A DNA stretch of 32,021 bases from Clostridia bacterium (GTDB lineage Bacteria; CBDUZB01; JAGLHV01): positions 1-32,021 of the forward strand of contig JAUVLC010000019.1 in assembly GCA_030595925.1 (NCBI GenBank), in the 5' to 3' direction. Of the stretch, positions 3,584 through 26,664 are shown piece by piece (position 1 is the first letter of the stretch; each line of letters begins with the position of its first letter). The notes under the pieces are model-generated. The model saw nothing but the letters and a program-made list of their open reading frames with translations, did no database searches and had not been told where the DNA came from. Made by a program: the position numbers and the translations under genes.

Positions 3584-3737
3584 GGGGGAAACAAAGCTTT
3601 TTATGAAAAGCTAAAACAGACCATAACCTGCCAACCTTAACCTTGATTAAAAACTTCGCACTGTTTCTTTTTACAAGAAACAACTTGATTATTCCGAATC
3701 AAATAAAACAAATATAAATTCGGAAAATATTATCATT

Positions 3738-3776
3738 CCACTAATCTCACAATTTCGATACAAACGGCATTAGTGG
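3738..3776 (-). repeat. 39-bp near-palindrome, copy 1
   Basis: Two 13-nt arms flank a 13-nt loop. The - strand begins CCACTAATGCCGT and ends GTGAGATTAGTGG. The outer 8 bp pair perfectly; the inner arm is more decayed than in the other two copies. It lies 27 nt past the stop of the orphan tonB fragment, exactly as the intact copy lies past tonB. Confidence 0.85.
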
Positions 3777-3802
3777 AAAAGAAGGGTAGTTATAAAAAAT
3801 AT

Positions 3803-4123
3803 TTATTTTGTTTTTAATTCAAAGCAGATTTTTTGGATGCACCATACGGCAACGGGCATACCCATAATTTCAGCCGGCTTAAAACGCCATTTTCGAATTA
3901 CCCTCATTGCTTCCTGCCCAAACTCATATAAACCACCGTTATCCACTAATTTTACCATTGAAACTTTCCCTTCCCGGTCGATAAGAATTTTTAACGTTAC
4001 GATTCCTTCTATATTTTTTGCGATGGCTTCAAAAGAATAATCCGGCTCTCTATATTTTATAAGCTGTGGTAATTGTTCCACTTCGCTTAAATCATAAGTA
4101 AGCATCGGGGCAATTAAATCCAC
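3803..4123 (-). pseudogene. Orphan TonB C-terminal domain fragment
   Basis: The 106 codons encode only the TonB C-terminal domain, including VTLKILIDREGKV, VIRKWRFKPA and the VWCIQKICFELK end. They match residues ~92-197 of the intact TonB (10827-11420) with about six substitutions. There is no transmembrane anchor or periplasmic linker, and the apparent start is a GTG that is a Val codon in the intact gene, so it cannot work as TonB on its own. One change turns the conserved YP of EPDYP into YS, consistent with relaxed constraint. It is best explained as the remnant left when the island entered or duplicated the tonB 3' end. Confidence 0.85.
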
Positions 4124-4214
4124 TTCCAGTTGGTTTCTTTCTTGATTATAGCAATTGAGTTTATCTATATTGATAATGATAATTTTTATATACTTTCCGG
4201 ACTAAAAATAAATA

Positions 4215-5286
4215 TTACAATTTACATCCTGAAATTATTGCCCAATAGTAAAAACTCTCCGGGGATATGGATTTCAATTTATTTAGAATTCTAAATCTGT
4301 CGGTTAAGCTGATAGCTTCAATTTTCTTTATTTTATCATCTGTATATTTTAAATTCCCTAAACCTACATTTAATTTTTTATGCCTTAACAGATAAGCTAT
4401 AAAGGCTATTTTTGCAGAATCAAGTTTTGCATCTAAAATTGTATATTTTCCTCCTATTATATGACTTTTAATTCTTCGAATACCATCTTTAAGTTCCAGG
4501 GTTTTTTCATTACTTACCCCCTTTCTTAAAATCTAATTGAGAGATTAAAAATGATGTCTCTATTGTATCTTCCAAAAATTTATCAATACTGTTACCTAAA
4601 TTTCTATAACCTGCCTCTATTAAAGCAATTTTTTTATAAACTTCGGTTATCTTTCGAATATCTTTGGCAAATGTAAATAACCTGCCTAAATCAAATAATT
4701 GTTTTATAATCTCCATAGACTTATCTTTTTTGTAAGGAATTCCTATAGTATTAGGAGCAAAAGCAGTAAGTTTATCAGATAAAATTGCATCTATCGTTGG
4801 AACTTTCACCAAAATCTCTTTTTCGCATTCAATAAATTCATGTTTTATAGATCTTTTTACTATGTTTTTAAAAGGCACAGTGATATTGAAAATATCTAAC
4901 AGAATATAAGACTCACTTTTTCTCCCTATAGAGGAATAATAATAAAATTTGAAATGCCTTTTAGGAATATTGTGAACTACTTTTCTTTCATTTTCTTCCC
5001 ATTTTTTAAATATTTTGCTTTTTTGAATAAGAGTATCAAAAATCCCTGGTAATTCACTCTCTTTTCTTGCAGTAACAATGTCAACATCGATAGATACTCT
5101 TTTTACCTCGGGTAATAGAATAAAAAGACAGGTTCCTCCTTTAAAAACTAAATCTAACCCATTCAAAACCAACCCGCCCAGTAATGCAGAAGAACAAATT
5201 ACCTTTTCTGCCAATGTAGGATCTACTTTTTTCTTCCTGCTTATTTTAGTTATCCATTCAAGGCTAAAACATTTTTCTTTTATCAT
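4215..5286 (-). pseudogene. AbiEii-family nucleotidyltransferase toxin, frameshifted
   Basis: The first frame (ATG at 5286, SD AAAAAGGA) encodes a polymerase-beta-fold nucleotidyltransferase: GGT with preceding Lys, then RVSIDVD with two acidic metal ligands, and a later SDKLTAFAPNTIGIPY segment followed by KQLFDLGRLF, all typical of PF08843 toxins. It stops at 4510-4512 just after LDFKKGGK. A second open frame continues directly to a TAA at 4215-4217, with residues such as ELKDGIRRIKSHI and DSAKIAFIAYLL that look like the family's C-terminal helical domain. Removing one G from the run of five near 4515-4520 joins the frames into ~355 residues. Family members transfer nucleotides to tRNA or other targets as type IV toxins. 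It is either inactivated, a sequencing error, or a short-run phase variant. A longer GTG start at 5313 lacks a ribosome site. Confidence 0.75.
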
Positions 5287-5300
5287 GATTTCCTTTTTAC

Positions 5301-5339
5301 CCACTAATGCCACTTTTTTTAAAATTGTGGGATTAGTGG
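5301..5339 (+). repeat. 39-bp near-palindrome, copy 3 (inverted)
   Basis: The + strand begins CCACTAATGCCAC and ends GTGGGATTAGTGG around a 13-nt loop, giving 12 pairs of 13 with one G-G mismatch. It has the orientation opposite to the tonB-linked copies. It encodes the last six codons and stop of the AbiEi-like gene (PLIPQF) and fills the gap before abiEii, so it was either inserted there or carries a junction function. Confidence 0.85.
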
Positions 5340-6047
5340 AATTACAACCTTTCTCAAATCTTTATCTATTTTCTTCCTTTCTGCATAATCAAGCATCACT
5401 GAAAGATTTATTCTATAACTATCCATAATAGAGCTAATTATTTTTTTATATTCTTCCGGATCTATAAAATTAAGTTTTTTTTGTTCAACATACAAATCGA
5501 CTAAAATTTTCTCTATACGAGCAAAACATTCTTCTGCCGGACCCCGGGAAACTACGGGCCGAAGGATAATCGAATCCTTTTTAATTTCTACATATTTATC
5601 TATCTCTTTACCCAAAGGATTAAGATAAACATGATAACCTTCATCTGTAAGAAATTCCGCTATATTCGAAAAAAAATCTCTTTCACTATAAATAAAACCC
5701 AAAAAACTCCCTGGAAGGTGATGAAAAAAAATTTTTAATTGTTCTGTACTCCAAACTGAAAATTCAAGCAGGGGAAATTTATTTTTTACTAAATTTGTCA
5801 ACTTTCTTACACATTTAGTATCCAAGACAAATTCTCTATCTATATTGCTATACCATCCTCTTCCAGCTGTAAATATTTTTTCCTCCTTTTTCAAAAGATA
5901 GAGTAACTTTTTTAAACTTTCATTCTTAAATTTTATCTTTCTACTTATTAAGAAATTATTGAGAGAATGTATGCTAAAATATGCATTTTTTTCGGCATAT
6001 GTTGCTATTGTTTGTTTTAATGTATTCTTCTTTATTTTATTATTCAT
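5319..6047 (-). CDS. DUF6577/AbiEi-like antitoxin
   Basis: The 242-residue protein has an N-terminal winged-helix-like part (residues ~8-65, ending in GRGWYSN) and a second domain that begins with FSVWSTEQLKIFFHHLPGS and includes VYLNPLGKEIDKYVE and ILRPVVSRGPAEE. That pattern belongs to the DUF6577 family, which sits next to AbiEii nucleotidyltransferases and acts like the AbiEi antitoxin/repressor of type IV systems. SD GGGAGAG lies 9 nt before the ATG. The gene ends 33 nt before the abiEii start, the order expected for an antitoxin-toxin pair. The last six residues come from the 39-bp palindrome. Antitoxin function is inferred from family and neighbour. Confidence 0.75.
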   Translation of the reverse strand: MNNKIKKNTLKQTIATYAEKNAYFSIHSLNNFLISRKIKFKNESLKKLLYLLKKEEKIFTAGRGWYSNIDREFVLDTKCVRKLTNLVKNKFPLLEFSVWSTEQLKIFFHHLPGSFLGFIYSERDFFSNIAEFLTDEGYHVYLNPLGKEIDKYVEIKKDSIILRPVVSRGPAEECFARIEKILVDLYVEQKKLNFIDPEEYKKIISSIMDSYRINLSVMLDYAERKKIDKDLRKVVIPLIPQF

Positions 6048-6107
6048 TTATTTTCTCTCCCGGCTTAATTATAATACTATTTATCCTTACCAATACTTCA
6101 ACAATAA

Positions 6108-9100
6108 TCATATCTGCGTTCTATACTTTTTAGTCTTATTTATAGCCTCATCTATAGTAATTTCACTTTTGTAGTTAATAAAAAAAGCCTTTTCTATATT
6201 ATCACATTCAACATTAAGGAAATTTACATTATCAAATCGAGAAGATTCTTTTTTAATAAATTTTTGTAATTCCTTTATTACCTTATTAAACTTTGAATAA
6301 TCTTGTAATGCAATATTCTTTAACACATTAATAACTTCTCTATCCAGCGTATCAAATCTATCTTGCTGAATTTCCCGTCCATACTCATAGGAAAATTTTA
6401 ATAATTTAAAAAGTGAAGGAAGGACTTTAATTGTGTTTATTTTTTGAAGAATACCTTTTCTGTATTCAAACTTCTTTTTTCTCGTAATAAAATCAGCATA
6501 ACATCGTATTGCTTCCAAATTTTGTTGTTCAATAAGCAATTTGGCTGATTCTAAGAAAAAGTTCTCATCTTTTGATGACAGTTTATGAATTAATTTTTCT
6601 TTACATTTTTTATTGTTTTGCGTCACAAGAATTTTAGCAGCTTTAGTAAATAATTTCAATTCCTTTATATCCAGTATTTCTTCTAAAAAAGCCCTACAAT
6701 CAGGAAAATTTACCACTGTTTCCAAAGCTAATAATCTATTTCCCATTTCTATTTTTGGATCCTTAACTATACCATATAAACAGTCCCTTGCTTCTTGTAT
6801 TTTATACTTTTTGCAATAATTAATATGATTTTTAAGTACTTGATTAGCCTTAATCTCTTTATTCATATTTTCTAAAATTCTTTCTCTCATTTTTTCAGTA
6901 GGGAGTTTATTTTCGAGGTAATCTATTCCTACAAATTGGGTTCCTTCAATCCAATCAAAAGAGAGCATATCCAATAAGACATCTTCCGGATATTTTAGAT
7001 TAAATTTTATTAAGAAATACCACAAGTCTACAGCCAACTGGTTTTTTGCCGATGTTGTTTTATCTTTTGATACCAAAGCTTCTTTAAAATTAACTTTTTT
7101 AAGATTTTCTAAGCAAAAATTATCAATTATAGATTTTTGTCCTATAGATAACTTTATTTCATTTCCACCATAATAAAGTAAATTAAATATCTGCCGAAAT
7201 GTAAACCTCTTATAATTCCACTGGTCAATTTTTTCTTTTAATTTATTAAATGTCCATTTTTCTTTCCTTTCTTTTGCAAAAAGGAACCGAAGTTCTCGAA
7301 CAACAAATTCGTTATATTTTTTTGTGGAACTATACCTCAATATATCGTCATAATCTAATTCTTTCTTCTTTTCCCCATTAAAAATATTCTCAATTTCTTT
7401 TAATAATTCTTCTCTGTCAAAAATTATTTGAATCTCCTTTTTAATTTTGTCTCTGCGTTCTTTTTCGTAATCCCTCGGGGAAACAGGGGAAGGGATTCCT
7501 ATTTCTTCCCTAATTTTTTTTACTGAGAAGTCAAAATCATTTCCCCTCCAGCTATGCAGACAATTGATGAACAGCAGGAGATTATTCTTTGAAAATTTAT
7601 TATTGCGGTATTCTTGAAGCAAAAAATCAATACATTCTTCATCTGCTATCAATGCTACAAAAGCTAAAAGAGAATAATTATTGTCTATTCCTTCTGCATA
7701 AAGTTCTTTAACAAATTTAAAAGCTGTCCCGGTATTTTGAAAAAATATCTGGAATATAGAAATATCCTTTTTTCTATAACCATATTCCTCATCTACGCTT
7801 CTAATTAATTTTTTTACTTCATTATAAATAGTATTATCCTCTTTATAGGCTTCAATTATATTGTTAACTATTTTTTTCATTGCCCTTTCTATCCAAAAGA
7901 TTTCAAAATCCTGCGGATTTTCAATAAAATAGTTAATAATTTTTCTAATACCCTCAATAGAACTAACTTTTTCTATTCCCTGCACAAGATACCAGCTTTC
8001 GTCTACCAAACGGGTTTTTGTAGAATTAGTCCGTAATCTTGTTTTAGGTATTCCCTCCAGCAAAATATCTACATATCGGTCAGTGTATTTACTTTCTTTA
8101 ATTAGATAATAAAAACCGGATAATATCCAATCATTATTTGAATTTTTGAGTTCTTTAAGAGCATCCATTGTATCCGGTGTAGCCATTTTTAATCGACCCA
8201 AAGCATAAAAACATTGGTGGCGAACATTTAAATTTTCCTTTTCGTCCAATACATATCGAATCAATAATCTTCGCAATGATTCATCTGCCAAATTTTCCAT
8301 TCTTCCCAATATCTGAATTGCATTATATCGATGTGTAAAATGTTTTTTGGAATGAGCAAAGTTCATTAAATAGTCATATATCTCCTTTGTTTTAGTAAAA
8401 TCAGCTAATTTTTCATGGTCAATATTTCTATCAATCCAGATTTTTCTGTCTGTATATTTTTCAAATATTTTTTTAAACAGTTTTACCCTTTTATTTTCAT
8501 CAATCCTGTTTGTTTCAAATTTTAGAGCAAGTTCGGGGTCGTTATTCATTAGATATTTGAGAAAATCGTCTTTTGCTCTCAATTGACATAAAAAAGCCGT
8601 CACATTGACCCATGAAGGAATGATTTTATTTTTTTTATTATATTTAAATAAACCAAGAATTTTTACGATAATTTTACTTATTTTAATTCCAAAACGGTTA
8701 TAATCAATATATTCTTCAACCAACTTTTTTATTGTAATCACCCAATTTAAAGAAATAGGGAAAGAAATAAATTTTAAAATATCGTTCAGACTATTCTTTA
8801 CTAATATCTCTGCCGCCAGATATTCCTGGAAATTATTATGTTGGAATTGGTAAACATCCCCATTTTTAAAAAATGATTTTTTAATTAATGAAAGCTCTGC
8901 TATGATTCTTCGTTTCTTTTTATCGGAAATAATTTTATTGAATTCACTAATGGTAACGAAATTTTTCTGAAGAGTTTCCATAACCAAAGATATATACATT
9001 AGATCCTTTTTTATCTCTGAAAGAGGATACTCTTGCCTTGAATCATCTTTATCCGCAAATTTTTTTTCATCGTTTTGAAGAGCCAAAGATATAATTTTGG

Positions 9101-10331
9101 AAAAGATATCACTTCTCTTTACCGGTATTTTTTTATCCCTTTGATATATCTTAATCAGATGAGTTAAGAAGAAAGGATTTTTTGCTAAATCGAATAACAA
9201 CTGCTTATTCAGTTGAGTTAAGAAAACATCTCTATCCTGATTAAGTAATTTTTGAGTGTATTCTTGAATATCCTCTGAACTAAAAGGTAAAAGATTAAAA
9301 ATGTCCCAATTTTCAAATTGTCCGGAATAGAAATTTGTCCTGCACGCAATGATAAAAGTAGACTTAGCATATTTTTCTGTGAAGTTCTTGATTTTTCTTA
9401 CCGCTATCTCTTTGTTTATCACCTGATCAAACTCATCAAAGAGAAAAACAAGTTTTGATTTATCATAATCTAACAGACTTTTTGATTCCTCGCCGATTTT
9501 ACCTTTCACATAATCTGTCATCTCTTCGTCAACATAGGTGTCCAGCTCAATAAAAATGGGTATGAAATCCTGATTTTCTTCCTCTTTAAATTTGCAAGTA
9601 ACCGCTTTTAATTCCGTACTCTTTCCATATCCGGCATCACTGAGCAAAACTATTCTTTTTGTTCCCTCGGCAATTAAAGTATCGAGGTCAAAAAAACTTT
9701 CTTCCGAAGAAGGAAAATATTCTCCACCTTGGTAATATTCTTCCCTCTTTAACAATTTTCTATCAATATAATTATTATTTATTTTAGTCTTAAGCCCTTC
9801 AAAATATGGAAGTTTGTATATCTCACTTATTTTAGCCTTGCGTTCAGCATTATTTTTTCCTCCATATTCTCTTACGAGTTTATCATTAATCGCTTCTAAC
9901 ACTAATTGAACAAGTTCCTCAGTAGTAGTATATTCCTTTCGCCAATGTCCTTGATTAAAATCGGTTATCTCGCTTAAAAATTCATTTAATCTTTTTTCCC
10001 TATTACTACTGTCTTCAGCTATAAAAATCAAGATAGGAAGTTGATTCCTCTTTGCTTCAATGTATTCTATTTTTACAACAGAACACCCTTGAGGATTATT
10101 CTCTGCCGGGATATAGCCATATTGATTTTTAAAAATTCCAATATAAATATGGCTTTTTCTTATTTCTTCTAAACAAACCTGTCTGGGAGATTCTGACTTA
10201 GCAACAAACGATTCTGCATATACCGACTCCCATGACCGATTTTGGCTAACCGCAGCAGCAACAGCTTTTCTTTCTTCTTTTAAATCATTCATTGTAGAAC
10301 TTATAAAAACCCGTAATTTTGCCATAATCAC
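6108..10331 (-). CDS. DUF4062-NACHT-HEAT STAND ATPase, candidate anti-phage sensor
   Basis: The 1407-residue protein opens with a DUF4062 domain (residues ~4-150; VFISSTMNDLKEER, later SHIYIGIFKNQYGYIP). A NACHT NTPase follows (~225-420): Walker A DAGYGKST at 232-239, Walker B LVFLFDEFD at 294-302 with D299/E300, an ACRTNF sensor at ~329-334, and a winged-helix NPFFLTHLI at 385-393. The P-loop's first Gly is Ser231. The remaining ~950 residues are alpha-helical with HEAT-like units (for example YNAIQILGRM then RHQCFYALGRL), the usual ligand-sensing part of STAND proteins. DUF4062 also precedes NACHT in animal NWD1 and TEP1. STAND ATPases of this shape (Avs, bNACHT) oligomerise on phage proteins and trigger an N-terminal effector. 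Defence is inferred from architecture and the toxin-antitoxin neighbour. The start is GTG 10331 or ATG 10325; neither has a strong SD. Confidence 0.85.
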   Translation of the reverse strand: MIMAKLRVFISSTMNDLKEERKAVAAAVSQNRSWESVYAESFVAKSESPRQVCLEEIRKSHIYIGIFKNQYGYIPAENNPQGCSVVKIEYIEAKRNQLPILIFIAEDSSNREKRLNEFLSEITDFNQGHWRKEYTTTEELVQLVLEAINDKLVREYGGKNNAERKAKISEIYKLPYFEGLKTKINNNYIDRKLLKREEYYQGGEYFPSSEESFFDLDTLIAEGTKRIVLLSDAGYGKSTELKAVTCKFKEEENQDFIPIFIELDTYVDEEMTDYVKGKIGEESKSLLDYDKSKLVFLFDEFDQVINKEIAVRKIKNFTEKYAKSTFIIACRTNFYSGQFENWDIFNLLPFSSEDIQEYTQKLLNQDRDVFLTQLNKQLLFDLAKNPFFLTHLIKIYQRDKKIPVKRSDIFSKIISLALQNDEKKFADKDDSRQEYPLSEIKKDLMYISLVMETLQKNFVTISEFNKIISDKKKRRIIAELSLIKKSFFKNGDVYQFQHNNFQEYLAAEILVKNSLNDILKFISFPISLNWVITIKKLVEEYIDYNRFGIKISKIIVKILGLFKYNKKNKIIPSWVNVTAFLCQLRAKDDFLKYLMNNDPELALKFETNRIDENKRVKLFKKIFEKYTDRKIWIDRNIDHEKLADFTKTKEIYDYLMNFAHSKKHFTHRYNAIQILGRMENLADESLRRLLIRYVLDEKENLNVRHQCFYALGRLKMATPDTMDALKELKNSNNDWILSGFYYLIKESKYTDRYVDILLEGIPKTRLRTNSTKTRLVDESWYLVQGIEKVSSIEGIRKIINYFIENPQDFEIFWIERAMKKIVNNIIEAYKEDNTIYNEVKKLIRSVDEEYGYRKKDISIFQIFFQNTGTAFKFVKELYAEGIDNNYSLLAFVALIADEECIDFLLQEYRNNKFSKNNLLLFINCLHSWRGNDFDFSVKKIREEIGIPSPVSPRDYEKERRDKIKKEIQIIFDREELLKEIENIFNGEKKKELDYDDILRYSSTKKYNEFVVRELRFLFAKERKEKWTFNKLKEKIDQWNYKRFTFRQIFNLLYYGGNEIKLSIGQKSIIDNFCLENLKKVNFKEALVSKDKTTSAKNQLAVDLWYFLIKFNLKYPEDVLLDMLSFDWIEGTQFVGIDYLENKLPTEKMRERILENMNKEIKANQVLKNHINYCKKYKIQEARDCLYGIVKDPKIEMGNRLLALETVVNFPDCRAFLEEILDIKELKLFTKAAKILVTQNNKKCKEKLIHKLSSKDENFFLESAKLLIEQQNLEAIRCYADFITRKKKFEYRKGILQKINTIKVLPSLFKLLKFSYEYGREIQQDRFDTLDREVINVLKNIALQDYSKFNKVIKELQKFIKKESSRFDNVNFLNVECDNIEKAFFINYKSEITIDEAINKTKKYRTQI

Positions 10332-10353
10332 ATATAGACTTTATATGCCTTCC

Positions 10354-10545
10354 TTATTTTTTTCTTCTGACTTTTTTTCTATTGTCATCCAGCCATTTTT
10401 CTAAATCTTTTCTGCGAAACCTCCAATTCCACCCAACTTTAATTGCAGGTATTTTTCCCTGTTGAGCATAAGAATAAACTGTTGTGGTATCCAACTGAAG
10501 ATATTCAGCAACTTGTTTAATAGTAAGCAGTTTTTCTCGTACCAT
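10354..10545 (-). CDS. Excisionase/MerR-type helix-turn-helix protein
   Basis: The 63-residue protein is a single HTH_17 (excisionase family) domain: LLTIKQVAEYLQLDTTTVYSYAQQGKIPAIKVG followed by WRFRRKDLEKWL and a basic tail. SD GAGAGGGG precedes the ATG and a strong promoter lies upstream. It is the first gene of the island operon, with only 22 nt before the STAND ATPase. Such proteins act either as recombination directionality factors or as small repressors. No integrase is present, so an operon regulator is the simpler reading, but an excisionase relic is possible given the bracketing repeats. Confidence 0.8.
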   Translation of the reverse strand: MVREKLLTIKQVAEYLQLDTTTVYSYAQQGKIPAIKVGWNWRFRRKDLEKWLDDNRKKVRRKK

Positions 10546-10581
10546 AATCCCCTCTCAAATTTCACAATTTTGATATGATTT

Positions 10582-10610
10582 ATTTTACTAAAAAAAATCT
10601 TTAGAGTCAA
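10582..10610 (-). promoter_or_regulatory. Sigma70-type promoter of the island operon
   Basis: On the - strand, -35 TTGACT (10605-10610), a 17-nt spacer and -10 TAAAAT (10582-10587) lie ~35 nt upstream of the HTH start codon. Spacing and hexamers are near consensus. No other gene is seen between the HTH gene and tonB. A second hairpin, AATTTTTC/GAAAAATT, lies near 10726-10745. Confidence 0.65.
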
Positions 10611-10746
10611 ATAGTTTCATAAAAAACCATAAAATTATATAATTTCTCATAAATAGTACTGCTATAGAAAAGAGTTACTGTTAATAGGAACAAGTGCAGA
10701 AAAACGAAGTGTTTTTGGTAATCCGAATTTTTCTATTGAAAAATTT

Positions 10747-11150
10747 GGGAAATATTATCATTCCACTAATCCCACAATTTCGATAAAAGCGGCATTAGTG
10801 GAAAAAAGGAGAGTTATAAAAAAGATTTATTTTGTTTTTAATTCAAAGCAGATTTTTTGGATGCACCATACGGCAACAGGCATACCCATAATTTTAGCCG
10901 GCTTAAAACGCCATTTTCGAATTACCCTCATTGCTTCCTGCCCAAACTCGTATAAACCGCCGTTATCCAGTAATTTTACCATTGTAACTTTTCCTTCCCG
11001 GTCGATAAGAATTTTCAACGTTACGATTCCTTCTATATTTTTTGCGATGGCTTCAAAAGGATAATCCGGCTCTTTATATTTTATAAGCTGTGGTAATTGT
11101 TCCACTTCGCTTAAGTCATAGGTAATCATAGGGGCAATCAAATCCACTTC
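10747..11150. repeat. Right direct repeat: 3' end of intact tonB
   Basis: This is the ~404-bp counterpart of 3722-4126, running from the 3' flank (with its 39-bp palindrome) to the codon where the TonB C-terminal domain begins. This copy remains joined to the anchor and linker of tonB, so it is the functional one. Confidence 0.9.
10763..10801 (-). repeat. 39-bp near-palindrome, copy 2
   Basis: The - strand begins CCACTAATGCCGC and ends GTGGGATTAGTGG, with a 13-nt loop. It has 11 Watson-Crick pairs, one G-T and one G-G. The G-T position is a proper A-T in the inverted copy at 5301-5339, hinting that pairing is maintained. It lies 25 nt past the tonB stop. Confidence 0.85.
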
Positions 11151-11420
11151 GTTAGCTAAAGCATTAGGATCTAACTCAAAAGTAATTTTTCGTCTTAATT
11201 CCGGTTTAATTATGTTTTTTTTAATTTTTCTTTGTTTTATTTCTTTGGGTTCTTTCTTTTTTTTAAGTTTTATCTTTTCTTTCTTTAGCCTAACTACTTC
11301 CACTTCGATAGGTTTAATTTTGTTTACCGGCTGATGAAAACAATAATGCAGTAAGGGTAGAAAAGAAAAAATAGCAATATTAATTAAAAAAGATATACCA
11401 AAATCTTTGCATTTCTCCAT
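10827..11420 (-). CDS. tonB: TonB energy transducer
   Basis: The 197-residue protein has an N-terminal membrane anchor (residues ~8-28), a short periplasmic linker rich in Lys/Glu rather than the usual Pro (~35-75, KKEKIKLKKKKEPKEIKQ), and a TonB C-terminal domain from ~105 (EPDYPFEAIAKNIEG, REGKVTMVKL, RKWRFKPA). It couples the ExbB/ExbD proton channel to TonB-box receptors in the outer membrane. It is the last gene of the DUF3450-ttpC-exbB-exbD-tonB operon, 12 nt after exbD, with SD AAAGGA. Its 3' end is duplicated at 3722-4126. Confidence 0.93.
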   Translation of the reverse strand: MEKCKDFGISFLINIAIFSFLPLLHYCFHQPVNKIKPIEVEVVRLKKEKIKLKKKKEPKEIKQRKIKKNIIKPELRRKITFELDPNALANEVDLIAPMITYDLSEVEQLPQLIKYKEPDYPFEAIAKNIEGIVTLKILIDREGKVTMVKLLDNGGLYEFGQEAMRVIRKWRFKPAKIMGMPVAVWCIQKICFELKTK

Positions 11421-11432
11421 TCTTTTAATCCT

Positions 11433-11849
11433 TTATTCTTCTTTCATTGCGGCTAAAGAGATTCTTTCCGCACCGGCTTGTTTACATTCATCCATCACCG
11501 TAATTATTCTGCCTGTTGATGATAATTTATCCGCAATAATAATTATAGAACTATCTGTTTTATCCCTTAATATCTCTTTTATTATCCTGTTTAATTCTGC
11601 CAAATCAACTTTGCGGTTATTAATATGAATAGTTCCTTCCTTAGTCACGGAGATTAATACACTTTCCCGGGATAAACTCCGGGCTGTCTTTGCTTTTGGT
11701 TTGTGAACCTCAACCCCTGTTTCTCTGGAAAACGTAGTAGTGACCAGAAAAAAAATCAAAAGCAAAAAAACCATATCCACTAAAGGAGAGATGTTCAGTT
11801 CCGGGGTTTTCCTTTCTCTCCGATATGAAAATCCTCTTAACTCACTCAT
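11433..11849 (-). CDS. exbD: ExbD biopolymer transport protein
   Basis: The 138-residue protein has the ExbD/TolR pattern: cytoplasmic N-terminus, then LNISPLVDMVFLLLIFFLVTTTF, a single membrane helix whose Asp (LVDM) is the proton-carrying residue, then a periplasmic domain ending in KQAGAERISLAAMKEE. It inserts in the ExbB pentamer pore and links proton flow to TonB. The start overlaps the exbB stop by 4 nt, so translation is coupled. Confidence 0.93.
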   Translation of the reverse strand: MSELRGFSYRRERKTPELNISPLVDMVFLLLIFFLVTTTFSRETGVEVHKPKAKTARSLSRESVLISVTKEGTIHINNRKVDLAELNRIIKEILRDKTDSSIIIIADKLSSTGRIITVMDECKQAGAERISLAAMKEE

Positions 11850-12469
11850 TGTTTATCTCCTTTCGTCAAAATATTAATTATTTTGTTTATGTTTTTTTCA
11901 AATTCGAAAATTTGTTGATTAACTTTCTTCATTAAATGATTATGGGAAAAAAGAGCCGGTATAGCAACAATCAATCCCGACTGGGTAGTAATTAATGCCT
12001 GGGATATTCCTTTAGCCAACGATTGTGGGTCTCCCGTTCCAAAAAGAGTAATACTATCAAACGTTGCTACCATCCCGCTAACCGTCCCTAATAATCCCAG
12101 CAGAGGCGCAATAGAAGCTAAAGAAGCAATCGTGGAAAGACTTTCTTCCAGACGGGGATATTCTTCATGCATTATTTCCTGCACGATATTTAACAAAGAT
12201 TTCCTCGTTTTAGATTCATCATCGGCCAAAGCTTTTACCGTTTTGGATAATATACCCGGGGTAACAAAGGATAACTCTACTATTTTCTCTTTTTCCCCTT
12301 TTTGTAAAAAACTAATAATTTTATCAGTAAATATCCCCTGGTTTATATCCTCTTTTTTAAGCCGGCAATACTTTCCAATAATTAAAGTCCAAATTACAAG
12401 CGAAACAATAAATATGGGAATCATTACCGGACCACCACAAATTAACATTTCCAAAATTGATTTAACCAT
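11846..12469 (-). CDS. exbB: ExbB / MotA-TolQ-ExbB proton channel protein
   Basis: The 207-residue protein has a first membrane helix at ~12-32 (GGPVMIPIFIVSLVIWTLII), a cytoplasmic segment, and the conserved helix pair ASIAPLLGLLGTVSGMV ... GISQALITTQSGLIVAIPAL typical of the MotA/TolQ/ExbB family. It forms the channel around ExbD. It overlaps the upstream TtpC-like gene by 8 nt. It is a second, shorter paralogue beside that protein, matching Vibrio-type TonB2 systems. Confidence 0.92.
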   Translation of the reverse strand: MVKSILEMLICGGPVMIPIFIVSLVIWTLIIGKYCRLKKEDINQGIFTDKIISFLQKGEKEKIVELSFVTPGILSKTVKALADDESKTRKSLLNIVQEIMHEEYPRLEESLSTIASLASIAPLLGLLGTVSGMVATFDSITLFGTGDPQSLAKGISQALITTQSGLIVAIPALFSHNHLMKKVNQQIFEFEKNINKIINILTKGDKQ

Positions 12470-13844
12470 TTATTTTTTCCTTACATAGGGAATTAATAAA
12501 TTTAACTGCGTTTTTTTCCATATCAGCAGCTATTTTTTCTGCCCGGTCGGAAAGATAATTATGTATTAGCAAAGCCGGTATTGCAATAATCAGTCCTGCC
12601 TCTGTAGTAATTAAAGCCTCGGAAATACCCCCCGCTAATAACCTGGGGTCTCCTCCCCCGTGGTAGGTAATTATTTTAAAAGTAGAAATCATTCCGCTTA
12701 CCGTTCCCAACAACCCCAATAAGGGAGCAACCCCGGCTAAAACACCTATGGTAGAGAGATTTTTTTGCAGGCGGGGAATTTCTTCTAAATGTTGTTCGTG
12801 AAACATTTCTTCTACTACCTGCCTTCCGGCTTGTTGCTGTTCTAATCCTATTTTTAACATTCTGGCTACCGGGCCGGGGGTATTCAGGCATAACTCTATC
12901 GCTCCGTTTTTATCATTGCTTTTCCACAAATCCATTATTTTGTTCATTAGTAAATCCGCATCAGTATGTTCCCGTCTAAACGCCAATAATCTTTCCACCG
13001 ACATTATAATAATTCCCAGAAGTAAAAATGCGATGGGAATCATCACCGGTCCGCCTTTTATTATCCATGCAATAATACCCTTCCCCCCCTCTTCGCTTAT
13101 TTTAGATTTAGCTCCCTGGATTATATCCATAGGAACAAGAATGTTTCCTTTATCTTTTTTACGCAAAGGAATAAACATTTGCTTTAATTCTTTGCGTAAG
13201 GAAGAAGATAGGTTTTTGTTCCACCGGTTAACAATTTTCCCTTTTTTATAATTTTTTTCCCACAATCCTAATTTACCATCATTTGCTCGATAAACAGCAA
13301 ATGCATTCCCTATTTTTAAGAGCTCTACTTCCTGTCCGTCTACTTTATCCCGATAATATTTTAAGGTTTCCGCTTCCGAAATTTCCTTTTCTAAAAAATT
13401 GAGGAGGTCGGAAAAACTTATTATTGAATCTATTTTTTCAAATTTATCCTGCTGAACAAAAAACAAATTGTTTTTATTTTTTCTCTTTAAACTTTCTTTT
13501 TTTTCATTTATAAAATTTCGGATTTCTTTTGCTATATTTTCCAACGTCCCACATTCATTCTGAATTTCACCTTTATTTTCTTCTAAAATATTCAGCTCTT
13601 CTTCTAAGTTAAATTTTTTCGTTTTCAAATCAGCCAACCCGTCTTCCAAGGAATAAACTTTCATTTCCAGTGATTTTAACCGGTTATAGCTATTCACTTT
13701 ATCATTGACCCTTGCTATTTTTTCCTGCCTTAATTGTTCTCTCAATTCATTCAATTTATTAAGGTCCTCTTTGTTATACGCCATTAGACTTTGCGTGAAA
13801 AAAACAATGGCTATTAAACATAGAAACCCAATATATTTTTTCAT
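12462..13844 (-). CDS. TtpC-like extended ExbB family protein
   Basis: The 460-residue protein has a signal peptide (to about residue 22), a periplasmic coiled coil and extension (~25-245), then an ExbB-type membrane domain: GGPVMIPIAFLLLGIIIMSVERLL and VLAGVAPLLGLLGTVSGM with SEALITTEAGLIIAIPAL. In Vibrio TonB2 systems TtpC has the same layout and is required along with ExbB2/ExbD2. Here it is followed by exbB with an overlap and preceded by DUF3450 with a 1-nt overlap (TAATG). Its periplasmic part probably bridges the inner-membrane motor to DUF3450 or the cell wall. Confidence 0.88.
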   Translation of the reverse strand: MKKYIGFLCLIAIVFFTQSLMAYNKEDLNKLNELREQLRQEKIARVNDKVNSYNRLKSLEMKVYSLEDGLADLKTKKFNLEEELNILEENKGEIQNECGTLENIAKEIRNFINEKKESLKRKNKNNLFFVQQDKFEKIDSIISFSDLLNFLEKEISEAETLKYYRDKVDGQEVELLKIGNAFAVYRANDGKLGLWEKNYKKGKIVNRWNKNLSSSLRKELKQMFIPLRKKDKGNILVPMDIIQGAKSKISEEGGKGIIAWIIKGGPVMIPIAFLLLGIIIMSVERLLAFRREHTDADLLMNKIMDLWKSNDKNGAIELCLNTPGPVARMLKIGLEQQQAGRQVVEEMFHEQHLEEIPRLQKNLSTIGVLAGVAPLLGLLGTVSGMISTFKIITYHGGGDPRLLAGGISEALITTEAGLIIAIPALLIHNYLSDRAEKIAADMEKNAVKFINSLCKEKING

Positions 13845-14647
13845 TATTTTATACCCTCCGTCCGGATAATGGAATCAACTATAACCGGAAATTCTATAAG
13901 CTCGGGAATTCTTTTGCCTTTCATTGTCTCAATTGCTTTTTTTATATTTGTTCGACACTTTCGACGTAAATCATTTTTCCACACATATCCCTCTTTGTTT
14001 TTTAGCAAATATCCTGTTTCTTTCCCGTCATTAGTCTGATAAAAAAGCATAACCCTTCCTACCCTTACTATTTTTGCTTTTTTTATTTCACCTTCCATAG
14101 TTTCTCTCTCTTCAGCATAAATCTCGCTGTTTTCGCCTAATTCTACTTCCCTGACAAGCTGAATATAAATTTCCTGCATTACTTCTAACAAATCACTTTC
14201 TTTTTGTTGCAGACTTCTTTTAAGATTGTCCATCCGGTTTAACTGCAGATCAATTTCAAAAGGAAATCCGAATTTAATTCTTTCTTCAATTTTTTCGATA
14301 TCTTCAACTAACACTTTCTTTTCCTTAGCAAGAAAAATCTCAGATGCCTTTTTATCTTTACCTAATTTACTTTCCTCTTTTTTAACACTACTGATTTTAT
14401 TTTTTAATTCCCGGGTATCATTTTTTAAATTGCCAATTTTTTCTTCGAGCACTTTTATTCGTTCTTCCAGACTTTTGTGTGCTGAAGAAACCTGTTCTTT
14501 TTCCCTTTGATGTTCTGTTTTTTCTTCTTCCAGCAACCGGGCTATTCTTTTAATATCCTCATTAATTTTTTCCCCGGTTCCGGCTTCAATAAAAGAACTT
14601 AGAAAAATTGCCGATCCTGCAATTAAAATAAACTTTCCTATACTCAT
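13844..14647 (-). CDS. DUF3450-type periplasmic coiled-coil protein
   Basis: The 267-residue protein has a signal peptide (SIGKFILIAGSAIFLSSFIEAG) and a long coiled coil (~28-150), then a compact domain including VRVGRVMLFYQTNDGKETGYL, characteristic of DUF3450. These proteins sit at the head of ttpC-exbB-exbD-tonB operons in many Gram-negatives. The role is likely structural within the TonB2 complex in the periplasm. The same FYQTND/YRANDG-type motif recurs in the downstream TtpC-like protein (AVYRANDGKLGLW), suggesting the two share a domain. Confidence 0.82.
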   Translation of the reverse strand: MSIGKFILIAGSAIFLSSFIEAGTGEKINEDIKRIARLLEEEKTEHQREKEQVSSAHKSLEERIKVLEEKIGNLKNDTRELKNKISSVKKEESKLGKDKKASEIFLAKEKKVLVEDIEKIEERIKFGFPFEIDLQLNRMDNLKRSLQQKESDLLEVMQEIYIQLVREVELGENSEIYAEERETMEGEIKKAKIVRVGRVMLFYQTNDGKETGYLLKNKEGYVWKNDLRRKCRTNIKKAIETMKGKRIPELIEFPVIVDSIIRTEGIK

Positions 14648-14729: not shown

Positions 14730-15575
14730 TTACCACCGGCATTTGCTGCATACAGAATGGCTCTTCATCGTTTTAATAAAGTTAGTATATTTTCTTGACC
14801 GTCTAATCTCTTTTATGTTTTCCTTAAGAGCATTTCCCATACAATCCCGGGGAAGAAAACAACAGGGAGTAACTTCTCCCGTTACCGTAACGAAAATACT
14901 GCGTTTAACAACGTTGCAGGGCAAAGAATGTCTCCGGGGTAAATATAACTTTAATTTCTTTTTTCCAGCCAGCTCTTTCGCTCCTGAAAACAATTCCTTT
15001 TCTTCTTCCCGGGAAATATATTCAACCGTAGAATCTATTTTATGAACATTAAATAACCTGTGTAAAATTACCGCATCAAACCCAAGTTCGCAAGCAACTT
15101 TTATTAAATCCGGAATTTGTTTAAGATTATCTTTATATATCGCAATATCCATATAAATTTGGGGAAATTCACCTCTCCGTTCATTTCTCTCTTTTATCAA
15201 ATCTTTAATTTGTGGTAAAATAACCGGAAAAAATTTCCGGTTATATATTCCAAAAGCAATCTCTCTTAACCCACTTTTAAAAACCTTCTCTATGTTTTCT
15301 CCGATTAAAACCCCATTACTGGTAAGATTAGTATACACTCCTTTTGATTCAGCATATTCTATCATTCGAAAAATCTCCGGATTTAATAATGGTTCTCCCC
15401 ATCCATGCAAACCGACAAACCGGAAATTTTTAAATTGCAGTATTTTCTTAAAATTTTCCAAGGAAAGGAAGGAATCTAAATTCTCCAGATTTTTTCTCAT
15501 ACATATTGCACAATTTAAATTACACCTGCGTGTAGGTTCCACCTGTAAAGTCAAATCCGGCTTTTGCCAAAACAT
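14730..15575 (-). CDS. Radical SAM / SPASM-like protein
   Basis: The 281-residue protein has the [4Fe-4S]-SAM motif CNLNCAIC (C18, C22, C25), the glycine-rich GWGEPLLNP, and a C-terminal Cys set (LPCN, TPCCF, DCMGN, CSKC) that would hold an auxiliary cluster as in SPASM/Twitch enzymes. It ends right after CSKCRW, so the SPASM part is short. ATG 15575 is chosen over an upstream TTG (15584) because GGGAG lies 5 nt before it. Its substrate is unknown. A 54-codon Cys-containing ORF lies directly upstream on the same strand. A role in peptide modification or in making a metallophore-type compound for this TonB operon is speculation. Confidence 0.85.
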   Translation of the reverse strand: MFWQKPDLTLQVEPTRRCNLNCAICMRKNLENLDSFLSLENFKKILQFKNFRFVGLHGWGEPLLNPEIFRMIEYAESKGVYTNLTSNGVLIGENIEKVFKSGLREIAFGIYNRKFFPVILPQIKDLIKERNERRGEFPQIYMDIAIYKDNLKQIPDLIKVACELGFDAVILHRLFNVHKIDSTVEYISREEEKELFSGAKELAGKKKLKLYLPRRHSLPCNVVKRSIFVTVTGEVTPCCFLPRDCMGNALKENIKEIRRSRKYTNFIKTMKSHSVCSKCRW

Positions 15576-15576
15576 T

Positions 15577-15622
15577 ACTCCCAACTCCCAATTTCAAAAT
15601 TCCAACCTCCAACTTCAAAACT
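15577..15622 (-). repeat. Short heptamer-like repeat before the radical SAM gene
   Basis: On the - strand the sequence reads in units near TTGGGAG (twice adjacent, then TTGGAGG, with interspersed TTTTGAA twice). It runs up to the start codon, and its last GGGAG acts as the ribosome binding site. It resembles in style the 7-bp tract at 180-410. Confidence 0.55.
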
Positions 15623-15693
15623 AAAAAAATGAAGGTGAAATGTGTTTCGAACGATATAGCAAATTTTAACAAAAACTATACCACTTCTTCACA

Positions 15694-15858
15694 TTATTTT
15701 TTACAAAAAACCCTTAATTTATCTAAACCAAAAAACCGGTAATTCCAAATTAAAGCAACCCCTAAAGCTACCAAAGCACCCAGGTGGGGCAATATTCGGC
15801 ATACCCCATGACAACCACTAACCTTCCCTTCCGTAACGACACTTATTGGAACACACAT
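15694..15858 (-). CDS. 54-residue Cys-containing single-helix mini-protein
   Basis: ATG at 15858 has a near-perfect SD (TAGGAGG, 9-nt spacing) and a 54-codon frame ending in TAA at 15694. The N-terminal part is polar with Cys2, Cys16 and Cys20 (SGCHGVCRILPHLG), then a hydrophobic segment LGALVALGVALIWNY likely forms one membrane helix, then a basic tail with Cys52. I do not recognise the family. It lies 35 nt after the TPR gene and 118 nt before the radical SAM start, all on one strand. It could be a small inner-membrane metal-binding protein, or a precursor peptide for the radical SAM enzyme; the membrane-like helix favours the first. Confidence 0.6.
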   Translation of the reverse strand: MCVPISVVTEGKVSGCHGVCRILPHLGALVALGVALIWNYRFFGLDKLRVFCKK

Positions 15859-15893
15859 AATTTTTTACCTCCTATAATTTTTTTAAGCAAAAA

Positions 15894-19434: not shown

Positions 19435-19675
19435 GGTATTACTGTTGCAAATTATAAGTTATAAGCATATTGCTTTTGTTTCTCTTTTGTCGGCTCTGTT
19501 CGTACGGTCACCTGTCTGTTCTTATCTACACCACCTCTTTTCTTATTAAATTAGTAAATAATTACTGTTAAATAGTTCGCTACAAAATTACACCGTCTTA
19601 TAAATTTATTTTAAAATCGATTATAAACAGAACACTTTTTCTCTTTTCTTTTAATAAACGCACCGCATCAATTTT

Positions 19676-20326
19676 TTACCCTTTTTCCGCCACAATATAT
19701 ATTAATGGCATTTTATCCTCCGGATCTTTTATAATTTCTTCCTTTGCCACGTTGAAACCGGATTTCTTTATCATATCGGAAGCACTATTTAAGTTTAAAT
19801 TATGGAAAACAGGAATTTTTACAAAGACATTATAAATCATCATTATTATTTTGTATATCCGGGATTCTCCAATGCCGACTATTGTTGCAATAAACCGGCC
19901 TTTTGGCTTTAACACCCTGCGTATTTCAGATAAAGCTTTTCGAGGATATTTCATATTATGCAATGCATTTGTACAAATAACCACATCAAAGATTTCACGC
20001 TCGAAAGGTAAAGAATAAGCATCCTTTGCGGAAAAGTCTATATTGTTAATTCTTTTTTCTTCCATTTTTTTCTTTGCTTCTTCAATCATTAATTCTGAAA
20101 TATCGACTGCATAAACCTTTTTAGCCTGTTTAGCTACCCGAAAAGTAATCAGTCCTGTACCGCAAGCAACTTCTAAAATAGTATCACAAATAGTTAGGTC
20201 TCCTAATATCTTATCCGGTAATGATGATTGGTAAATTTTCCACCTCTTTTGTATAAATCGGTCATACCTGGGGCTAATTTTATCCCAAAACTTCTTCTCT
20301 TGTTCAATTCTTTGGTTATCTTCCAC
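19676..20326 (-). CDS. Class I SAM-dependent methyltransferase
   Basis: The 216-residue protein has motif I LEVACGTGLITF (~51-62), an acidic post-I residue in YAVDIS, ICTNALHNM and a VLKPKGRFIAT motif, typical of the UbiE/Methyltransf_11 group. It is likely cytosolic and acts on a small molecule. It is downstream of the HPr-like and DUF2292 genes, in the run between the two receptors. The substrate is unknown; menaquinone methylation is possible by family but no pathway genes are near. Confidence 0.82.
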   Translation of the reverse strand: MEDNQRIEQEKKFWDKISPRYDRFIQKRWKIYQSSLPDKILGDLTICDTILEVACGTGLITFRVAKQAKKVYAVDISELMIEEAKKKMEEKRINNIDFSAKDAYSLPFEREIFDVVICTNALHNMKYPRKALSEIRRVLKPKGRFIATIVGIGESRIYKIIMMIYNVFVKIPVFHNLNLNSASDMIKKSGFNVAKEEIIKDPEDKMPLIYIVAEKG

Positions 20327-20369
20327 TTTCTTTTTCCTTCTCAGATATTTCTTATTATTTTTTTATTTT

Positions 20370-20582
20370 TTAAAATCGTTTCTTTTCTTTTTTTTCAATC
20401 CGGACTATTTTAGAATCGTGAATGACAATCACTACCTCTCCATATTTTATTTCTTTAATAGCCCCAAGTATTTCGTCAAAAATTTTAGAATTCCTATCTT
20501 TTATCTGTTTCATAATTATCAATCTTAACAATCCTTCAATTATTTTTCTTACCTTACTTCCTCTCGGCAATTTATAGCTCAA
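20370..20582 (-). CDS. DUF2292 (YezD-like) small protein
   Basis: The 70-codon frame starts at a TTG that overlaps the TGA stop of the HPr-like gene. The C-terminal ~45 residues (EILGAIKEIKYGEVVIVIHDSKIVRIEKKEKKRF) match the DUF2292 pattern: a short helix and two strands. An internal ATG at 20513 would give a 47-residue protein closer to family length and is the likelier start, though it lacks a strong SD. Function is unknown in the family. Confidence 0.7.
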   Translation of the reverse strand: MSYKLPRGSKVRKIIEGLLRLIIMKQIKDRNSKIFDEILGAIKEIKYGEVVIVIHDSKIVRIEKKEKKRF

Positions 20583-20833
20583 TCTTTCCCTAATAAATTT
20601 TCTATTCCCAAAAGCATTTCTTTCTCATCATCACCATGTGCTAATATTGTTATTTTATCGCCCCTAACTATTTCTAAAGATAATAAATCTATAATGCTTC
20701 GGGCATTTATTGATCCTCCCCTTTTTTTTAAAAGGAAATTCGCTTTAAATTGGGAAATAATGCCTGTCAATTTCATACAATTAAGTATATTTAATCCTTC
20801 TTTTAACCTTATCTGAAAATTTCTTTTGCTCAT
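20579..20833 (-). CDS. HPr-like protein lacking the phospho-acceptor His15
   Basis: The 84-residue protein has the HPr fold pattern: GGSINARSIIDLLSLEIVRGDKITILAHGDDEKEML aligns with the HPr core including the Ser46 region (S46 here by position). The active-site GLHARPA is replaced by GLNILNC, so His15 is Asn15 and Arg17 is Leu17. It therefore cannot accept phosphate from enzyme I. Bacillus Crh is the known parallel (Gln15, Ser46 retained) and is purely regulatory. No other PTS gene is in the window. SD AAAGGA is good. It overlaps DUF2292 by 4 nt. Confidence 0.82.
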   Translation of the reverse strand: MSKRNFQIRLKEGLNILNCMKLTGIISQFKANFLLKKRGGSINARSIIDLLSLEIVRGDKITILAHGDDEKEMLLGIENLLGKD

Positions 20834-20901: not shown

Positions 20902-23148
20902 TTAAAACTTAACTTCCATTCCTCCATAAATGATTCTGCCGGTATAAGGAGCCCACATAAAAGCTGCATCTGCAGGTCTTTTATCATCCTGGATATAATC
21001 AAACAAATTCTTTGCTCCCGCCACTAAAATAACCCCTTCCGATATCTCCTTTGAGACCTTTATATTATTGACGACGAATTCTTCTGTATGCTTTATTTCG
21101 TTCTCCGTTTCATCCTCTTCACAATAATCAATGTATAAACTACCGGTATAATTAGCATTCCAGATAAAATTCCAACCTTCAGGCCTGTAGGCTAATTTTA
21201 CTCCACCCGTTGTTTGAGGAACCCGGGAAATATATTTGCTGTCATCATAGTAATCAGTTCCTTCCCAATCATTCCGTTTATCTTCGTACTGGGCATCCGT
21301 ATAAGTAAAATTAAAATCAATATCAAAATCCTGAATCATTTTTACCCCTAATCCTAATTCTATTCCCTGAGTATAGGCATCACCAATATTTTCCCACTGA
21401 TAATCATAACCTAACTGCGATACTTCATCACTGGCATCAGCAAAGCTAATTTTTTTCTCCAAATTAGTCCTAAAAAAATTAAGACTTAGAGAATATTCTT
21501 CATATATCCGATCCCATCCTAAATTAAAACTTACTGATTCTTCCGGTTCCAGCTCACTGGATTTATAAACCCGGGGTGAACCACTACAAAGATGTAAATC
21601 TTCACTAAAACCGTAAGGAACTCTAAACCCTGTTCCCACACTCGTTCTTATAATATTACCGGGATTAATCTCATATTTTAAAGCACAACGAGGATTAATC
21701 GATGTTTCATCATATTCCACTTTTACATCTTCTAAACCCACCTTTGCACTTCCGGCAAACGTATCTTCGGAATTATGAGTATCATAGCGGGTACCAAAAA
21801 CCAATTCCAATTTATCTGTTGGTTTAAATTCATCTTGAATATAAAAACCAACCTCCGAAGCACTCTTCTCACTTTCTGATTTATAGGAAGTACTGGATTC
21901 CAAATTGACATACATCCCTTCTTCGATCAGATTGTTGTAATTGTATTGCACACCAACAAGAAGCTTGTTTTTTTCTCCCAACGGATGCGCATAACTTATA
22001 TCCATTACATAAAGATTTTCATCGGCCATATAAGGATGTAGTATATTACTGGGGGGATACTCATTACTATGAGTTCCCAAATAATCGCCCACAAAAGTAT
22101 CGTTGGTAGCATTACGATTGTGAGTGGCAAAGGCAAGATTTATTCCCAGTCTACTTCCTAATTCAAAATCTTTCTGCCAACCTATATTTATTTCCTCTCT
22201 TGTGGTAGCTATATGTTCAGAACCTTCGGCAAAAGGATTTTCAAACACCCCTTCTCCTTCACCGCCTTTTCTTGACTCATTAATCGTTCTTCCGGAAAAG
22301 GATAACTTATCATTACCAGTAAGTTCGTAAAAGTTTACCCTGGCTCCAACACCAATATTATCTGTCCTTACTCTATCGGTAAATCTAACTCCCCCATCCA
22401 TTTGCGCCTTATTTTCATCATCTACAAATATCTCATCTGCAGTACTTTTCTGGGCAGTAAGCATAATATCTTTATTTTCTCCTGCGATTGAAGCATTTAA
22501 AGAATAAACATTAGAATTATGCTGTCCCCATTGGGTTTTAAGCGTTAGTTCCGGCTTGGAAGTCGGCTTCTTGGTGATAATGTTTATAACTCCTGAAATT
22601 GCTGAACTACCATAAAGCGCAGAACCTGCTCCTTTTACAATTTCTATTCTTTCGATATTAGACGCAGGAATCTGATCTAAACCGTACACCCCTGCTAATC
22701 CCGAAAAAATCGGTTGTCCATCAATTAACACCTGAACATGTCCTGCTTCCAGTCCCTGCATTCTAACAACGGTAAAACTACAATAAGAGCATTGCTGTTC
22801 TACTCTTACCCCCGGAACCCCTTCCAAGATTTGATAAAGATTAATTGCCCCTTTATCTTCAATATCCTGTGCTGTCAGGACCTCAGTTCTCACCGGTGTA
22901 TCTTTTAACTTTCTTTCCGTTTTAGTCCCGGTAACCACTACCTCTTCTAATTTTAAAACTTCCTGCTCCACTTTCTCCACCCGCTTAACTTCTTCAGCCT
23001 GTTTTATTTCTTGACCTTGCTCAATTTCCTCATCCTTTTTAATTTCCTCTGGCTGTTCAATTTCCTGAGCCAAACAATAATAAGTATTTACTCCCAAACA
23101 TGTAACTAAAATACTTGCTACCAATACTAACTTCCACTTACTAAACAT
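20902..23148 (-). CDS. TonB-dependent outer-membrane receptor 2 with CSYC plug motif
   Basis: The 748-residue protein has a signal peptide (to ~28), then an unusual charged stretch (~29-66) of EI/EV-K-Q repeats, a TonB-box-like KLEEVVVTGTKTE (~66-78), a plug (~79-200; ERIEIVKGAGSALYGSSAISGVINIITKK) with CSYC at 120-123, and a long barrel ending in YGGMEVKF. The plug Cys pair suggests metal, heme or thiol-linked cargo. Its promoter spacer contains a metalloregulator-like palindrome and feoB ends just upstream, so iron is a plausible cargo; this is inference. Confidence 0.9.
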   Translation of the reverse strand: MFSKWKLVLVASILVTCLGVNTYYCLAQEIEQPEEIKKDEEIEQGQEIKQAEEVKRVEKVEQEVLKLEEVVVTGTKTERKLKDTPVRTEVLTAQDIEDKGAINLYQILEGVPGVRVEQQCSYCSFTVVRMQGLEAGHVQVLIDGQPIFSGLAGVYGLDQIPASNIERIEIVKGAGSALYGSSAISGVINIITKKPTSKPELTLKTQWGQHNSNVYSLNASIAGENKDIMLTAQKSTADEIFVDDENKAQMDGGVRFTDRVRTDNIGVGARVNFYELTGNDKLSFSGRTINESRKGGEGEGVFENPFAEGSEHIATTREEINIGWQKDFELGSRLGINLAFATHNRNATNDTFVGDYLGTHSNEYPPSNILHPYMADENLYVMDISYAHPLGEKNKLLVGVQYNYNNLIEEGMYVNLESSTSYKSESEKSASEVGFYIQDEFKPTDKLELVFGTRYDTHNSEDTFAGSAKVGLEDVKVEYDETSINPRCALKYEINPGNIIRTSVGTGFRVPYGFSEDLHLCSGSPRVYKSSELEPEESVSFNLGWDRIYEEYSLSLNFFRTNLEKKISFADASDEVSQLGYDYQWENIGDAYTQGIELGLGVKMIQDFDIDFNFTYTDAQYEDKRNDWEGTDYYDDSKYISRVPQTTGGVKLAYRPEGWNFIWNANYTGSLYIDYCEEDETENEIKHTEEFVVNNIKVSKEISEGVILVAGAKNLFDYIQDDKRPADAAFMWAPYTGRIIYGGMEVKF

Positions 23149-26436: not shown

Positions 26437-26664
26437 CTAATCTCTCATCGATTTATTACCACTTTTTTTGCTTTGATAAATTTCAATAAATTTCTCAATT
26501 GAACGGTCATAGGTTTTTTCTACTTCCGGAGGGAAAAAACAGGCAGGAAATTCATCAAGTCTTAAATGGTATTGTAAGCATTCGCAACATATACCTTTTC
26601 TGGCACAAGGTTCATAAGTACAATTGCAAATTTTTTTGTTTTTCTCGACGTTACATTCTCTCAT
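26437..26664 (-). CDS. DUF6485 Cys-rich small protein
   Basis: A 75-residue protein with C4 and the pattern CNCTYEPCARKGICCECLQYH followed by FPACFFP, characteristic of DUF6485. The nine Cys suggest a metal or Fe-S site. SD GGAGG and its own promoter precede it. It shares a divergent promoter region with the GH65 gene. The function of the family is unknown to me. Confidence 0.78.
   Translation of the reverse strand: MRECNVEKNKKICNCTYEPCARKGICCECLQYHLRLDEFPACFFPPEVEKTYDRSIEKFIEIYQSKKSGNKSMRD

Follow-up and report, generated by a model that had tools for sequence, protein, structure and literature searches.

In the TonB2 system of Vibrio, the genes are arranged in the order ttpB2-ttpC2-exbB2-exbD2-tonB2-ttpD2, and the TonB2 system of Vibrio vulnificus needs both TtpB2 and TtpD2, a TPR protein, in order to work (PMC6957404). 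The window studied here, a stretch of 32,021 nt, carries on its minus strand an operon with the same core: a DUF3450 gene in the position of TtpB, a gene for an N-terminally extended ExbB-like TtpC, and genes for ExbB, ExbD and TonB follow each other in the Vibrio order. This agrees with the initial annotation, which had described a TonB2 operon. Like the Vibrio cluster, the operon also includes a TPR protein, which we liken to TtpD by kind only, and it resembles the Vibrio TonB3 operon in having a receptor gene at its start. Unlike in Vibrio TonB2, the TPR gene lies before DUF3450 together with its own receptor gene, and not after tonB. The window further adds a 54-aa ORF, a radical SAM gene and, upstream, the genes of a FeoA-DtxR fusion and of FeoB (the latter named from its sequence alone). 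The complete order on the minus strand is FeoA-DtxR fusion, FeoB, TonB-dependent receptor 1 (TBDR1), HPr, 70-aa ORF, methyltransferase, TBDR2, TPR protein, 54-aa ORF, radical SAM/SPASM, DUF3450, TtpC-like, ExbB, ExbD and TonB (Table 1).

The observation of a 54-aa ORF beside a radical SAM/SPASM gene in a TonB operon stands, and it brings to mind a second type of described system, the sactipeptide-type radical SAM maturases of ribosomally synthesised, modified peptides (RiPPs), in which the radical SAM/SPASM gene likewise adjoins a small ORF containing cysteines.

Table 1. Coordinates of the features discussed, from the TonB gene to the first receptor gene.
Feature	Position in window	Strand	Remarks
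TonB	10827..11420	-	
ExbD	11433..11849	-	
ExbB	11846..12469	-	
TtpC-like	12462..13844	-	ExbB/TolQ channel domain with N-terminal coiled-coil extension
DUF3450 (TtpB-like)	13844..14647	-	Opens the TonB2-type core operon
Radical SAM/SPASM protein, 284 aa	14730..15584	-	Start TTG 15584 or ATG 15575
Spacer between ORF and radical SAM gene, 109 nt	15585..15693	-	Mostly dispersed repeat (15585-15676)
54-aa ORF	15694..15858	-	N-terminal Cys/His segment, one predicted membrane helix (~residues 22-43), basic C-terminal tail
Shine-Dalgarno AGGAGG of the 54-aa ORF	15868..15873	-	9 nt ahead of ATG; identical in G002
TPR-repeat protein, 490 aa	15894..17366	-	TtpD-like in kind; 35 nt ahead of the ORF, also in G002
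TBDR2, 608 aa	17560..19386	-	TonB-dependent receptor 2, heme/B12/siderophore-type
TBDR1	20902..23148	-	TonB-dependent receptor 1; in G001 runs directly to DUF3450

The 54-aa ORF and its conservation

The ORF encodes the sequence MCVPISVVTEGKVSGCHGVCRILPHLGALVALGVALIWNYRFFGLDKLRVFCKK and begins 35 nt behind the stop codon of the TPR gene. Its ribosome-binding site is indeed close to ideal, as the initial annotation had stated, with AGGAGG, a 9-nt spacer and ATG. Only two free-standing ORFs of 40-120 aa in the window combine ATG with AGGAGG, this one and the gene of a DUF6485 protein. The N-terminal Cys/His segment consists of C2, C16-H17-G-V-C20 and H25. Three cysteines had been noted in the N-terminal half; C2, C16 and C20 are present and conserved. 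A fourth, C52, is replaced by Arg in the congener G002, and the conserved cysteines are therefore three (2, 16 and 20) and not four. The candidate membrane helix is likely to be one: the mean Kyte-Doolittle hydropathy reaches its maximum of 2.02 in the 19-residue stretch that starts at residue 19, and AlphaFold2 predicts, with low confidence (pLDDT 63), a single helix spanning residues 17-52.

Our sample of the genus comprises three genomes (the window's own, G001 and G002), the next relatives being marked as "same domain" only. In G002 (contig C50, record JAGLYT010000143.1, isolate RS_13_36), the ORF has 93% amino acid identity, no indel, the same Shine-Dalgarno sequence, a stop codon in place (TAA/TAG) and the same TPR gene at the same 35-nt distance. 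The frame is hence kept in one of the two congeners and is absent from G001 along with the whole block of genes around it. The initial annotation would have been refuted by a frame without conservation in relatives, and this check did not refute it. Between the window and G002, we counted 5 synonymous and 4 non-synonymous changes (dN/dS 0.22), a ratio similar to that of the neighbouring genes (0.06-0.23). Taken alone, the binomial test for an excess of synonymous changes is borderline (P 0.03-0.07), suggestive and not decisive because only two sequences exist. At the DNA level, identity is 94% in the ORF, 94% in the 3' end of the TPR gene and 28% (chance level) directly after the stop codon of the ORF.

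Outside its genus, the ORF appears to be an orphan in everything that we searched. A motif scan of ~85,000 species gave no homologue elsewhere, and nothing convincing outside the genus came from a profile search of 386 genomes or from tblastn-confirmed scans of genome and viral contigs, nor did Pfam, NCBIfam, PHROGs and the PDB return anything convincing. A degenerate DNA scan (CHGxC, followed by a basic or polar residue, two hydrophobic residues and PH) produced 20 genome matches and 1 viral match, all of them chance frames except G002, which served as positive control. Short-ORF matches in three further genomes (G004, G014 and G035) were dropped because the frame or the context was wrong. 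The ORF adds to the small genes that are missing from the family libraries, and since no homologue turned up outside the genus, any function has to be proposed without family support.

The receptor block and its radical SAM enzyme

In G001, TBDR1 is followed by ~0.35 kb of unrelated DNA and then by DUF3450. No orthologue of the TPR protein or of the radical SAM enzyme and no match to the ORF were found in this genome, and DNA comparison reveals no trace of TBDR2 on the contig with TBDR1 and DUF3450. A TBDR1 homologue also stands directly ahead of DUF3450-TtpC genes in other families (loci L142 and L150). Because this junction recurs in G001, L142 and L150, it appears to be the older arrangement, into which the block TBDR2-TPR-ORF-radical SAM seems to have been inserted between TBDR1 and DUF3450; alternatively, G001 could have lost the block. 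In G002, one contig breaks off shortly after the ORF and carries TBDR1 at the opposite end; another, with DUF3450, is cut within the radical SAM gene and retains the codons of its 36 C-terminal residues, which are 92% identical. The gene order is therefore probably that of the window. The TBDR1 relative in L150 (G150:C43) is very close (phmmer 5e-222) and adjoins DUF3450-TtpC; as the genome concerned belongs to another phylum, a transfer of the receptor-motor cluster is suggested.

The enzyme matches the radical SAM (PF04055, 1e-10) and SPASM (PF13186, 8e-11) families, both above the gathering score. Its motifs are C21-x3-C25-x2-C28 and, in the SPASM part, C223, G236-x4-C241 and C279-x2-C282. 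Although PF13186 matched, the second half of the SPASM domain (C-x5-C-x3-C) is missing, and the protein ends two residues past C279-x2-C282; given this end right after the CxxC pair, the enzyme is likely to hold only one auxiliary cluster. The best NCBIfam match is to the cofactor-type radical SAM/SPASM maturases, with TIGR04317 (W_rSAM_matur) at 8.5e-34 over residues 13-282. The enzyme is shorter than members of this family, and its 117 bits stay far below the 380 required. A role in tungsten-oxidoreductase maturation was rejected, as none of the three genus genomes has an AFOR_N gene. Neither Pfam nor the 25 best NCBIfam families include an RRE-type (PqqD-like) match in the enzyme, and the neighbouring genes that were scanned for a separate RRE all matched other families. 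The barrel starts at residue 13-21 and the CxxxCxxC motif at residue 21, which leaves no room for an N-terminal RRE. An AlphaFold model made without an alignment is poor (pLDDT 45) and was disregarded, and the 386 genomes hold only generic proteins that are ~30% identical to the enzyme.

The spacer between the two genes consists mostly of a dispersed repeat of ~90 bp, found in at least 41 places of the 2.6-Mb genome (from 91 candidates initially) and also in G002. The stretch directly ahead of the radical SAM start derives from this repeat, which seems to provide the start region of the gene. The ORF and the enzyme gene are adjacent across the repeat in the window; G002 has both, on different contigs, and there other DNA of 419 nt or more, in which this repeat occurs again, lies between the ORF and the contig end.

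The initial annotation had also called a radical SAM gene in a TonB2 operon unusual. The remark is supported by the absence of such a gene from the operon in all 25 other DUF3450/TtpC loci sampled, which came from the DUF3450-bearing genomes among the 386 searched and several of which are cut by contig ends. No ORF in these loci matches the window's enzyme, and a single one of more than 200 aa has CxxxCxxC, ~5 kb outside the operon.

Explanations for the 54-aa ORF

The reading that we favour, with a probability of roughly one half, is that the ORF is a genuine, translated and lineage-restricted microprotein, which crosses the inner membrane once and is an accessory to the TBDR2-TPR module in a TonB2-type operon. 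It would be co-transcribed with the upstream TPR gene and would form, with TBDR2 and the TPR gene, a receptor module that precedes the radical SAM gene and is placed between receptor 1 and DUF3450/TtpB of an operon for iron uptake. Hydropathy, the weak one-helix model and the positive charges behind the helix would put the basic C-terminal end on the cytosolic side and leave the short C-x13-C-H-x2-C segment facing the periplasm. Given its position straight after the TPR gene, the microprotein would most simply be an accessory to the TonB2-type assembly, and it may assist the TPR protein or the ExbB/TtpC motor in serving receptor 2. The Cys/His residues perhaps bind a metal or a redox partner; a metal or redox activity of the C-H-G-V-C motif is a guess. 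The enzyme would more likely be an independent passenger of the block than the modifier of the ORF. If so, the locus offers a modest but genuine new small gene and not a new modified-peptide system, and the congeners with and without the receptor-TPR-microprotein-radical SAM block would make a natural comparison for what accessories of the TtpB/TtpC/TtpD type add.

Some of the evidence would also fit an ORF without a function of its own. It could be a fading gene remnant, such as the final membrane-spanning segment left over from a protein like GtrA, which we consider unlikely. Outside the genus, the ORF comes closest to a GtrA-type protein encoded in G073 (single-genome profile E 8e-4), where the match falls on the C-terminal helix and the similarity is weak (WN-aromatic ... 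VF-x-KK), and the ORF scores 6.5 bits against a profile built from 30 GtrA loci, a value reached by 9 of 1992 segment-preserving shuffles. The G073 match, however, emerged from a search of 386 genomes, where ~0.3 would be expected by chance, and it needs a 3-residue insertion; Pfam's GtrA/DPMS model (PF04138) does not match the ORF, the rest of the family's sequence is absent from it and no GtrA gene occurs in the genus. Since the match was picked once the search was done and Pfam's own model is silent, we regard the similarity, which is not significant, as suggestive but post hoc and do not accept it. The conserved frame, Shine-Dalgarno sequence and stop codon, with the dN/dS given above, also argue against a remnant. 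Somewhat less probable still is that the ORF exists by chance in the untranslated end of the TPR mRNA and owes its conservation to recent ancestry or a role of the RNA. The borderline coding bias in just two sequences would allow this, as would a DNA identity equal to that of the adjacent end of the TPR gene; yet the ORF has a perfect Shine-Dalgarno sequence, an ATG and no indels, and conservation stops exactly at its stop codon. It shows 4 changes in 125 non-synonymous sites, against ~30 expected at the synonymous rate of its neighbours (~0.29), and an Rfam scan of the window gave no match.

The interpretation in the initial annotation is supported in part, but its main suggestion, a precursor peptide with cysteines on which the neighbouring radical SAM/SPASM enzyme acts, is not, and we consider it improbable. 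The product would perhaps be a metal-binding peptide that enters the cell by way of TBDR2, much as methanobactin is imported. This reading would account for the cysteines beside a gene whose product has CxxxCxxC and a partial SPASM domain, for the presence of both genes in a block that G001 lacks and for the receptor gene within this block. Against it, the ORF is tied to the TPR gene by the constant 35 nt and the same Shine-Dalgarno sequence, whereas a high-copy repeat separates it from the enzyme gene and more than 400 nt of unrelated or repeat DNA follow it in G002. Sactipeptide-type systems differ further, as the window has neither an RRE-type match in the enzyme (nor space for one before the barrel) nor a recognised peptidase, exporter or transporter among the block genes, and RiPP maturase models score far below their cut-offs. 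The peptide itself has a membrane helix, with its cysteines in the N-terminal half ahead of this helix and not in a C-terminal core; C52 is not conserved. Were the link to the enzyme nonetheless true, the ORF would be a modified membrane peptide of a new kind; the evidence leans against this. More doubtful again is a combination of both ideas, in which the block would be a self-contained mobile uptake or maturation module and the enzyme would modify the periplasm-facing Cys/His segment, making a metal-handling accessory of the TonB motor.

Further observations along the operon

The two receptor genes are separated by a stand-alone HPr-like gene and the 70-aa ORF (20370-20833), an odd site for a PTS protein; the G002 copy of the HPr-like gene matches PTS-HPr. 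Between this region and TBDR2 lies a UbiE-like methyltransferase gene (19551-20366), which is missing in G002, where the HPr region and TBDR2 are adjacent. Upstream of the FeoA-DtxR fusion gene, the DUF6485 protein is a Cys-rich protein of 75 aa (26437-26664, minus strand) with a perfect Shine-Dalgarno sequence. At the other end of the operon, an island of 6.6 kb (4127-10740) lies inside the 3' end of tonB and encodes an AbiEi/AbiEii-type toxin-antitoxin pair and a 1407-aa DUF4062/STAND-NTPase/HEAT protein. On either side of it stand direct copies of the 3' end of tonB, 411 bp long and 94% identical (3716-4126 and 10741-11150), and because these copies repeat the 3' end, tonB is intact despite the island. 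G002 is without the island, and its tonB adjoins an M23 peptidase gene.
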